A stretch of 64,000 nt of DNA from positions 62,001-126,000 of the forward strand of contig JAOAAY010000006.1 of the NCBI GenBank assembly GCA_026418615.1. The letters are read 5' to 3'. This document shows, one piece after another, positions 6,905-11,782 of this stretch. The position numbers and the translations under genes are program-made. Below the pieces are notes generated by a model, which was not told the DNA's origin, did not search any database, and worked only from the letters and a program-made list of their open reading frames with translations. The first letter of the stretch is position 1; the number at the start of each line of letters is the position of its first letter. This stretch comes from Candidatus Sumerlaeaceae bacterium. Its GTDB lineage: Bacteria; Sumerlaeota; Sumerlaeia; Sumerlaeales; Sumerlaeaceae.

Positions 6905-7182
6905 TCAGACGGATGAGGGCAAGCCTCGTTGCATGAAAAAAGCGGCGGGTCTGTCAAAGTCTCGGCCGGGCCTGCCAAAGCCCGCGCCTGAAAGGGGCCG
7001 TTTGGCTCTCATCGGGGGTCATTAAGGGGTGCGGGCGCGGCCGTTTGGGTCTGTGGCCGCGGTTGGGGCGGCGGGGCGCCCTCTCAAAGCCTTTCCGCTT
7101 ACTTTGGTGCTGTAAGGGAATTCTCAAGCCTGCGCGCGGCTGTGCAACCTCGCCTGCGAACCATTTGGAGGAGGATCGGCAG

Positions 7183-8067
7183 GTGAATCCGGCATTCAGG
7201 CGCGGGGCGCGCGGTTATCTCGTAGCCCGCCTGCAAGAGGCGCTGGGCGGGCTGCGATGCGATGGTGTGTTTGGCGTTCGCACGGACGAGGCCGTTCGCG
7301 CGTTGCAGGAGCGTTCGGGTTTGCCGCCCGACGGGGAGGCGGACGCGGCGCTGTGGCGGGCGACGGGTCTCGATTGGCCCGACGAGTTCGAGCGGTGCCT
7401 TTCGCTGACCGGCGCATTCGAGGGCACGGGTTATGGCGGCTGCAACGCGACGGACATTGACGGTGCAGGGCTGACCTTTGGGATCGCGGGGTTTACCACG
7501 GCCAGCGGCGAGGTTCAACGATTGGTGGCGGAGTTTGCTCGGCGCGCACCCGAGCCGCTGGGTTTGCTGACGCCGGATCGTCGGGCCGAGTTCCAAACGC
7601 TGACCGAAGGGCGCGCGGAACGCGAGGCTTGGGAGCGGTTCGTGTTTGGCGAGACGGGGCGCGTCGGGGCTGATGTGCGGGCCTTGTTCGCCGCGTGGGG
7701 TGAGAACCCGCAGGTGCAGGCGATCCAGCGGGCGTTCGTTCGGCGGCGGTTCTGGGAGCCGGCCGTCCGTTGCGCGTCGGCGCTGGGCCTGCGCTCGATG
7801 GCGGCCCGCGGGCTGATGCTCGATGTCTGGGTGCAGAACGGCGGTTGGCGTCCGGCACACGATGCGGCGTTGCGCGCCATGGATCGTCCGGGCGCGCCGG
7901 AACCCCTGCGGCTTCGCCATGCCGCGTTGGCTGTCGCGTCGCAGGCGCGGGCGCGGTGGCGAGCCGATGTGCTCGCCCGCAAACTCGTCTTTGCGGCCGG
8001 CGCGGGGAGCGTCCACGGCACGCGCTATGCGCTCGAGGCACACGGATTCAGCCGGTTCGAGTCCTGA
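7183..8067 (+). CDS. Peptidoglycan-binding, GH46 chitosanase-like endolysin
   Basis: The start is GTG 7183, preceded by a strong GGAGGAGG site; the longer ORF in the track begins without one. The 294 residues contain a PG_binding_1 repeat (about 8-62, GVFGVRTDEAVRALQ) and then a chitosanase/lysozyme-like domain. Glu80 (GAFEGTG) and the Asp91/Asp93 region (TDIDGAGLTFGIAGF) match the positions of the catalytic Glu and Asp of GH46 enzymes. The likely substrate is a beta-1,4-linked aminosugar chain, here probably peptidoglycan. There is no signal peptide, and the next gene is holin-like, an arrangement typical of phage lysis modules. Confidence 0.75.
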   Translation: MNPAFRRGARGYLVARLQEALGGLRCDGVFGVRTDEAVRALQERSGLPPDGEADAALWRATGLDWPDEFERCLSLTGAFEGTGYGGCNATDIDGAGLTFGIAGFTTASGEVQRLVAEFARRAPEPLGLLTPDRRAEFQTLTEGRAEREAWERFVFGETGRVGADVRALFAAWGENPQVQAIQRAFVRRRFWEPAVRCASALGLRSMAARGLMLDVWVQNGGWRPAHDAALRAMDRPGAPEPLRLRHAALAVASQARARWRADVLARKLVFAAGAGSVHGTRYALEAHGFSRFES

Positions 8068-8105
8068 TGGCAATGAACTATGAGCCTGCGAAGGAGGCAT
8101 GATCT

Positions 8106-8327
8106 ATGAAACAGTTCGGCATCACGCTTCACGAATTCTTCACCAGTGCGCGCACCTACATTTTCTTCACCACGCTGCTGTCCGGAGCGGTGGCACTGCA
8201 TCTGCTCAACCAGCAGCAGGCCGATGCGATCCTGAAAGCGGCCGTGGAGATTGGCATCGCGTTTTTCGGCGGGACTTGGACCTATAGCGTCGGCCGGCGC
8301 GACATTGGCCGGAGTGGCGAACAGTGA
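8106..8327 (+). CDS. Holin-like small membrane protein
   Basis: This 73-residue protein begins at ATG 8106, shortly after AAGGAGGC at 8090-8097. Two hydrophobic segments (about 18-34, YIFFTTLLSGAVALHLL, and 45-62, AVEIGIAFFGGTWTYSVG) are separated by a short polar turn, and the tail is charged (GRRDIGRSGEQ). This is the shape of a class II phage holin, which opens the inner membrane to let an endolysin out. The position between an endolysin without a signal peptide and a small lipoprotein supports the role. Sequence alone cannot exclude another small membrane protein. Confidence 0.6.
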   Translation: MKQFGITLHEFFTSARTYIFFTTLLSGAVALHLLNQQQADAILKAAVEIGIAFFGGTWTYSVGRRDIGRSGEQ

Positions 8328-8683
8328 GCCGATCGGCATTGGCCCCGCTGGCGCTGATCTTGATGACGGTGCCGGCGGCGTGTACTTGGACCCGGGTTGG
8401 GGACATCCGCCATACGACATTTCTGACCAGGACCCGGCTGACGCTGCCCGCCGGCGACTGCGGCGACGCCGCGGGACGCGAAACGGCTGTGCAATCGGAC
8501 TCTGAGCAGGCGTTGGCGACCCTTGAGCGGGCGGTCCGAAGCCTGCCGTCGGCAACGCGCGACAGCATGCTCGATCGCGTGCTGCCTGCGACTTTCGCCG
8601 ACACCTACGCTTCTGGCGGGGCGGGTTTGGAGCGCGGCGAAGGCGCGGGCGGTCAGGCCCCGCCCGCGTCCGACCGCAACTGA
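8324..8683 (+). CDS. Small lipoprotein, possible spanin-like third lysis gene
   Basis: The GTG at 8324 overlaps the TGA of the holin-like gene (GTGA), so translation is probably coupled. Residues 1-20 form a lipoprotein signal ending in the lipobox PAAC. The mature part of about 100 residues is polar, with one helical stretch (SEQALATLERAVRSLP) and a Gly/Ala/Pro-rich tail. In phage lysis cassettes this place is often taken by an o-spanin or Rz1-type lipoprotein, which is the basis of the suggestion; the sequence itself is not diagnostic. The last 31 bases overlap the 3' end of the convergent beta-helix gene. Confidence 0.5.
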   Translation: MSRSALAPLALILMTVPAACTWTRVGDIRHTTFLTRTRLTLPAGDCGDAAGRETAVQSDSEQALATLERAVRSLPSATRDSMLDRVLPATFADTYASGGAGLERGEGAGGQAPPASDRN

Positions 8684-10684: not shown

Positions 10685-11782
10685 TTGAGCAGGACATTTG
10701 AAGATGTGATCGAGTTGAACCAGCGCGAGTTGCTGGATTTTTGCGGAAAGAACGACCAGCGGTTGCGCGAGTTAGAGGGTCAACTCGGCATTCGGATCGT
10801 GCCCCGGGGCACGACGCTGAAATTGATGGGTTCGGCGGACGAGGTGGCGCGGGCGCGCGAGGCGATCGAGAAATTGCTGTCCATAGCGCGCGGCGACAGG
10901 AATCTGAGCCGCCAGCAAATGAGTTATGTGGTGGAGTCGGTGAAGTCCGACCGGCGCGAGGATCTGGAATCCATTTTTACGGATCGCGTTTCCGTTCCGT
11001 TGCGCAAGCGCGGCGTGACGCCGATGACGGCGGGTCAAAAGCGTTATCTGGATGCGATCCGCCGTTCCGACATTGTGTTTGGCATCGGGCCGGCGGGCAC
11101 GGGCAAGACCTATCTGGCGATGGCCATGGCCGTGAATTACCTTGTCAGCAATTTGGTGCGCCGGATTATTCTTGTGCGTCCGGCTGTCGAGGCGGGCGAG
11201 AAACTCGGCTTCCTCCCCGGCGACATCGCGGCCAAGTTCGATCCGTATGTGCGTCCTCTGTACGACGCGCTGCACGACATGGTGGATCCCGATCGTGTCA
11301 AGCAGTATCTGGAAACCGGTATCGTTGAGGTGGCGCCGCTGGCTTTCATGCGCGGGCGCACGCTCAACAGTTCGTTCGTGATCCTCGACGAGGCGCAAAA
11401 CACCTCGGTCGAGCAGATGAAGATGTTCCTGACGCGCCTCGGTTTTGACTCGAAGGCCGTCATCACGGGAGATGTGACGCAGATTGACCTGCCGGCGGGC
11501 AAGGAGTCGGGGTTGGTCCATGTCCAGAGCGTGCTGAGCCGCATTTCGGGCATCGACTTCATTCACTTCGAGCAGTCGGATGTCGTGCGCCACGCGCTGG
11601 TGCAAAAGATCGTGAAAGCCTACGAGGCTGCAGATGCGCGGGCGCGCGGTGCGATGCAGCAGGAATTGACTTTTGAGGGCGGCGGCGCCGAGCCGGGGGG
11701 CGGTGCAGGCTCCGCCGAGGCAATCCGGCTGGATTCTGACGAGAACGGGAGGCAGGCGCGCATCGCTGCCAGTGGTCATTGA
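10685..11782 (+). CDS. phoH: PhoH-family ATPase (PhoH-like, KH-related N-terminus)
   Basis: The start is TTG 10685 with GAGGAGG about 13 bases upstream. Residues 25-65 look like a small KH-like nucleic-acid-binding domain (LGIRIVPRGTTLKLMG). The rest is the PhoH ATPase core with Walker A GPAGTGKT (135-142) and Walker B FVILDEAQN. The C-terminal Gly/Glu-rich tail is unconserved. PhoH proteins act on RNA in the cytoplasm and often sit beside pgpH-type HD phosphohydrolases and ybeY. The pgpH-type gene follows here, but no ybeY does. Confidence 0.92.
   Translation: MSRTFEDVIELNQRELLDFCGKNDQRLRELEGQLGIRIVPRGTTLKLMGSADEVARAREAIEKLLSIARGDRNLSRQQMSYVVESVKSDRREDLESIFTDRVSVPLRKRGVTPMTAGQKRYLDAIRRSDIVFGIGPAGTGKTYLAMAMAVNYLVSNLVRRIILVRPAVEAGEKLGFLPGDIAAKFDPYVRPLYDALHDMVDPDRVKQYLETGIVEVAPLAFMRGRTLNSSFVILDEAQNTSVEQMKMFLTRLGFDSKAVITGDVTQIDLPAGKESGLVHVQSVLSRISGIDFIHFEQSDVVRHALVQKIVKAYEAADARARGAMQQELTFEGGGAEPGGGAGSAEAIRLDSDENGRQARIAASGH

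Follow-up and report, generated by a model that had tools for sequence, protein, structure and literature searches.

Gene transfer agents (GTAs) have been recognised in a handful of lineages. Holins also serve in protein export, known as type 10 secretion, in which the holin adjoins a wall enzyme and structural phage genes are absent. GTAs are defined as caudoviricete-derived particles whose genes are endogenised, often at several loci, are inherited mostly vertically and co-diversify with their hosts, and the definition also includes that mostly random host DNA is packed, the agent's own genome not fully, and that this DNA is delivered to other cells (PMC9662315). In RcGTA, GafA binds both the core (structural) promoter and the lysis-cassette promoter (PMC6363796). 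A literature search found no paper on GTAs in Sumerlaeota or BRC1. Here, we describe an endolysin and a holin-like protein of the Sumerlaeaceae that probably serve as the lysis module for a GTA-like system, domesticated and inherited vertically, with at least three loci (head, terminase and lysis).

The lysis locus lies in a window of 64,000 nucleotides (G000:C80:62001-126000), the whole stretch analysed, from the 3.57 Mb draft genome G000 of a Sumerlaeaceae bacterium in the phylum Sumerlaeota (Table 1). The PhoH-like gene in the window was recognised by eye, by comparing the relatives' sequence with the window's open reading frames. A preliminary description of this DNA had noted no capsid, tail or integrase gene nearby, which is true of the window flanks and of the 20 kb left of base 1. 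Particle genes, which it proposed to seek left of base 1, are found instead at two unlinked loci, the head cluster and the terminase (contigs C42 and C54 of G000, with the lysis locus on C80). Sigma-70 and terminator scans at the endolysin-holin cassette found nothing.

Table 1. Coordinates of features at the lysis locus, numbered from the first base of the window.
Feature	Position	Strand	Basis or remark
Promoter-like element	7102..7150	+	TAAGGGAATT at 7113-7122, common to head cluster and terminase promoters
GH46-type endolysin (predicted), 294 aa	7183..8067	+	PF01471 and PF01374
Holin-like two-helix membrane protein, 73 aa	8106..8327	+	Size, topology and position; conserved in six genomes
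ORF3, putative lipoprotein	8324..8683	+	Probably outside the conserved module
PhoH-like gene, anchoring the ancestral locus by its position (holin - phoH - HDIG)	10685..11782	+	

The endolysin gene starts with GTG and is preceded by a Shine-Dalgarno-like GGAGGAGG at 7167-7174. Its product matches PF01374 GH46 (E 1e-9) and, at residues 24-60, PF01471 PG_binding_1 (E 8e-10), both above the Pfam cut-off, and the top matches in a fold search are GH46 chitosanases (E 0.02, probability 1.00). Residues E80 and D93 are invariant across five homologues, and E80 aligns with the catalytic glutamate of GH46 chitosanases. A signal peptide was not seen in the protein. The predicted fold, two putative acidic catalytic residues, a wall-binding domain and the lack of a signal peptide are the features expected of a GH46-type endolysin. 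The preliminary description's GH46-like enzyme with no signal peptide is thus borne out, and its peptidoglycan-binding repeat proves to be a single domain. Phage forms of the endolysin occur on a Mu-like prophage contig of G002 (L010), which also carries Portal_Mu, and on the viral contig L033, with terminase-like genes downstream; none was found in a search of a phage collection. L010 (G002:C13, 12 kb), a Mu-like prophage or phage contig, encodes a transposase and a terminase in addition to the portal, and its own GH46-type endolysin is followed by a transmembrane/coiled-coil protein.

Within the module, conservation is highest in the holin-like protein, with 60-83% pairwise identity across six genomes and profile E values of 1e-35 to 1e-44. 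It contains two hydrophobic stretches (residues about 17-35 and 39-57), and its structure is modelled as three-helix at low confidence (pLDDT 67). No significant match was found in Pfam, PHROG or NCBIfam, and none in viral contigs; tblastn against phages and Foldseek comparison of the model with viral structures returned chance matches. The earlier wording, a 73-residue two-helix holin-like protein, holds for the size and the two hydrophobic stretches and does not extend to homology with a known holin family. We use the name holin because of the size, the two hydrophobic helices and the position, and the protein may work as one. That it lacks a significant holin-family match, that loci with only the holin-like gene exist and that the GH46 family is mainly chitosanases would all suit a non-lytic housekeeping membrane protein preceded by chance by a wall-remodelling enzyme. 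We consider this very unlikely, since endolysin homologues neighbour terminase genes, once in a Mu-like prophage and once in a viral contig, a distant holin homologue lies among phage-like genes in G003, and an enzyme with no signal peptide needs a path through the membrane.

ORF3, the putative lipoprotein, probably falls outside the conserved module. Its start overlaps the stop of the holin-like gene by GTGA, as described previously, and it also overlaps the end of an opposite-strand NosD-like open reading frame. Its coding score of 0.11 per codon is the lowest of the three genes (0.23 and 0.43 for the others), and its frame still scores best among its six frames. We leave ORF3 out of the module because no homologue is present at the lysis locus of relatives, which removes it as a conserved cassette member, and because of this weak coding score. 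A role as a spanin or third lysis gene was rejected on its absence from relatives and its non-consensus lipobox (P-A-A-C).

The holin-like gene is present in six of the eight Sumerlaeaceae genomes, at one ancestral site recognised because the neighbouring genes agree among genomes. Ahead of the lysis unit, G001, G007 and G005 all have an ABC-transporter permease. Downstream of the holin-like gene come phoH and HDIG genes in G000, G002 and G005, directly adjoining it in the last two. The endolysin directly precedes the holin-like gene in four of the six genomes (G000, G001, G004 and G007), and G002 and G005 carry the holin-like gene with no endolysin at the locus. Pairwise dN is 0.1-0.3 for the holin-like gene and 0.3-0.6 for the endolysin, with dS from about 1 to saturated, and the pair is under purifying selection at the protein level. 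G003, which is 92% complete, has no holin-like gene at the ancestral site and encodes the distant holin homologue (E 4e-9) beside phage-like genes; G006 has none, but this genome is only 66% complete. In other families, the holin-like gene occurs in none of 31 genomes, though most have the capsid.

These patterns bear on whether the pair is a decaying prophage remnant, as its phage-derived endolysin could indicate and as the preliminary description, with its remnant prophage lysis module, had entertained. The frames are intact and occupy one syntenic site in several genera, no prophage surrounds them, and a dN of 0.1-0.6 against a dS of about 1 to saturated is contrary to decay, which makes this reading extremely improbable. 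The condition set in the preliminary description, that the three genes travel together in relatives, holds for the endolysin and holin, in four genomes of three genera, and fails for the lipoprotein.

Head genes are found elsewhere in the chromosome. Portal_Mu is present in seven of the eight Sumerlaeaceae genomes, in single copy except in G002, whose second copy is in the prophage. In these seven genomes, the head cluster opens with the portal and also encodes a head maturation protease, a cement protein (PF09956), a major capsid protein and a gp36-type adaptor (PF07030), and most clusters add genes for a lipoprotein and for a small membrane protein with a coiled coil. The protease matches phrog_976 (E 3e-40) and the capsid phrog_1005 (E 1.5e-80), and the capsid is ~30-35% identical to those of YuA/RDJL-like and B3/JBD67-like siphophages. 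The head cluster is of the transposable-siphophage type; HK97-type Phage_portal (PF04860) is found in none of the eight genomes. The flanks are ordinary genes such as pheS, and no integrase or transposase was seen at the seven clusters, with genes called by a simple custom caller that may miss small or diverged ones. The Sumerlaeaceae loci examined, which are parts of the genomes, yielded no tail genes. A contractile injection system or tailocin was rejected, as tail sheath PF04984 is present in none of the eight genomes.

The large terminase (TerL; phrog_38, E 3.5e-77) was first recognised in two genomes of other families, G013 and G033, close to the head cluster, and lies at a separate locus in the same seven Sumerlaeaceae genomes that have the head cluster. 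G003 is without capsid, TerL and positional holin. On the single-contig chromosome of G004, the lysis cassette is only ~12 kb from terL (G004:C1:2188422-2202874), and the head cluster is ~130 kb away. G005 has two terL-like genes (G005:C90:2149-3810 and G005:C51:4671-6491), one of them with a motif promoter 69 bp upstream.

Across the phylum, 34 of 39 Sumerlaeota (class Sumerlaeia) genomes have a match to the capsid profile and 33 of the 39 to the TerL profile. The capsid tree sorts by GTDB family with 12 changes and the TerL tree with 9, both the minimum possible; branch support is SH-aLRT after a brief tree search, and the family labels take the place of a host tree. Capsid and TerL are thus mostly vertically inherited and co-diversify with their hosts. 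In other families (L159/L160 in G013, L161/L162 in G019 and L164 in G010), two further genes come after the head cluster, one for a 700-1100-aa tail-like protein and the other for a fibre-like protein that is secreted, and terL lies away from the cluster, a candidate phylum-wide viriform. In the capsid tree, two contigs listed as viral, L113 and L114 (IMG/VR 3300016457_000611 and 3300009034_003268), join G024 and G010 on branches of almost no length; both contigs are probably pieces of host chromosome.

The lysis and head loci are connected by a promoter motif. Six genomes have GGGAAT, mostly GGGAATT, ahead of the lysis unit, and six have it ahead of the head cluster. It often has AAGGG repeats, spaced at 10 bp, before it and a TAnnCT-like -10 element after it. 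In the window, TAAGGGAATT has one match in 64 kb at up to one mismatch; the exact motif TAAGGGAATTNTC was too strict as a search pattern. In G005, the lysis and head promoters are almost identical in sequence. Having been recognised on the lysis and head units, the motif was then tested as a prediction at other genes. GGGAAT lies at most 70 bp upstream of terL in three of five Sumerlaeaceae (G000, G002 and G006; p 6e-4) and is missing there in G001 and G004. It lies upstream of the portal in three of six genomes of other families (G019, G010 and G012), a count that for G010 and G012 holds only if the portal start was called too far upstream. Taken together, six of 11 predicted sites carry the motif against a background of 19 of 448 other genes (4.2%; p about 2e-6).

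Sequence models of the motif gave a more uneven picture. In G000, the head cluster and lysis cassette, both in that model's training set, are the only strong matches, the next having an E of 0.44. With a model built from head promoters only, the lysis site takes first rank in G007 and second rank in G004 (E about 0.2) and goes unlisted in G000, G001 and G002. The same model finds a third motif-bearing unit in G002 (L112:9940-11373, G002:C8:117921; E 4e-6), whose 101-aa protein resembles a 117-aa protein of the G000 head cluster and whose 70-aa lipoprotein and 236-aa protein resemble those beside the distant holin of G003. The 70-bp AAGGG-repeat/GGGAAT promoter occurs more than 100 times in G005, including before ribosomal protein genes (e.g. 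L102, L104 and L108), and two to five times in other Sumerlaeaceae. The motif is not specific in G005, because so many occurrences include unrelated genes, and its abundance there means either that the promoter has spread or that the regulon has widened.

A domesticated holin-endolysin pair acting alone, in programmed lysis or type 10 protein export and with no tie to the head genes, would account for several of these observations: no phage gene is linked to the lysis locus, the holin is more conserved than the enzyme and is kept alone in G002 and G005, and other families have head genes without this holin. We consider this rather unlikely, as the promoter motif is common to the head genes and, by prediction, terL, G003 lacks all of these parts jointly, and a conserved secreted cargo was not found beside the pair.

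We favour the reading of a GTA-like system with its own lysis module for several reasons. Firstly, the parts are jointly present within the family, and G003 is jointly without capsid, TerL and positional holin. Secondly, the capsid and TerL trees are congruent with host families, the lysis locus is inherited by position, and the pair is adjacent and selected in four genomes, with the holin in six. Finally, the promoter motif is shared, with a precedent in RcGTA, where GafA acts on structural and lysis promoters. The earlier suggestion of a domesticated module used for particle release gains support from the conserved, selected pair and the motif that it shares with the head genes. Several points weigh against the GTA-like reading, namely that the holin is missing from the 31 genomes of other families, most with capsid, that G002 and G005 have no endolysin at the locus, that the G005 promoter also precedes unrelated genes, that the head-only model is weak on lysis sites, that the terL genes of G001 and G004 are without the motif, and that the examined Sumerlaeaceae loci showed no tail genes. 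We write GTA-like rather than GTA because the three features readable from sequence are present, and DNA content and transfer need particles or experiment. These features are caudoviricete-derived proteins that would form particles, known here from their genes; endogenisation at several loci, with ordinary-gene flanks and separate TerL and lysis loci; and vertical inheritance.

For this system, we infer holin and endolysin activity, an activator, and DNA packing, release and transfer. A common activator would bind the 10-bp AAGGG repeats at the promoters and, in some of the cells, turn on the genes for head, terminase and lysis. Heads would then assemble, the terminase would pack chromosomal DNA, and the endolysin would accumulate in the cytoplasm. 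At a set time, the holin would open the inner membrane, allowing the endolysin to cut peptidoglycan, so that the cell bursts and particles are released. In G002 and G005, another wall enzyme may serve, or the holin may act alone. Delivery of DNA to other cells is open to doubt because tail genes were not found in the examined Sumerlaeaceae loci. A bolder proposal, which we regard as possible if doubtful, is a phylum-wide GTA of independent phage origin that lost its tail in Sumerlaeaceae, where lysis would free tailless, DNA-filled heads for a use other than injection.

If the GTA-like reading is true, domesticated particles would have a longer history and a wider occurrence than has been supposed, with one such system across most of a phylum, drawn from a different phage ancestor, with dispersed genes and one motif; the motif, the holin and the terminase offer handles for testing. 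Among known systems, RcGTA (Rhodobacter capsulatus, rhodogtaviriformids) is likewise phage-derived, vertically inherited and spread over several loci, with a lysis cassette apart from the head cluster (PMC6363796, PMC9662315). RcGTA differs in having a full tail and TerL within its core cluster, whereas in Sumerlaeaceae TerL stands apart and the loci examined yielded no tail genes, and the Sumerlaeaceae heads, described from gene sequences, resemble those of transposable B3/JBD67-like and YuA-like siphophages. In the Brachyspira GTA (BhGTA/VSH-1), terL also lies outside the delineated particle cluster, in single copy and conserved in relatives (PMC9662315), but this agent belongs to an unrelated phylum, has its endolysin inside the particle cluster and has proven gene transfer. 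The lysis modules of Mu-like or transposable siphophages (L010 and L033) share a GH46-type endolysin with an N-terminal peptidoglycan-binding domain, 35-36% identical, but in those modules the genes for the small and large terminase are its immediate neighbours, and another membrane protein takes the place of this holin. Type 10 secretion resembles the pair in placing a holin beside a wall enzyme without structural phage genes, whereas the Sumerlaeaceae pair is without a conserved spanin or cargo and shares its promoter motif with phage head genes.
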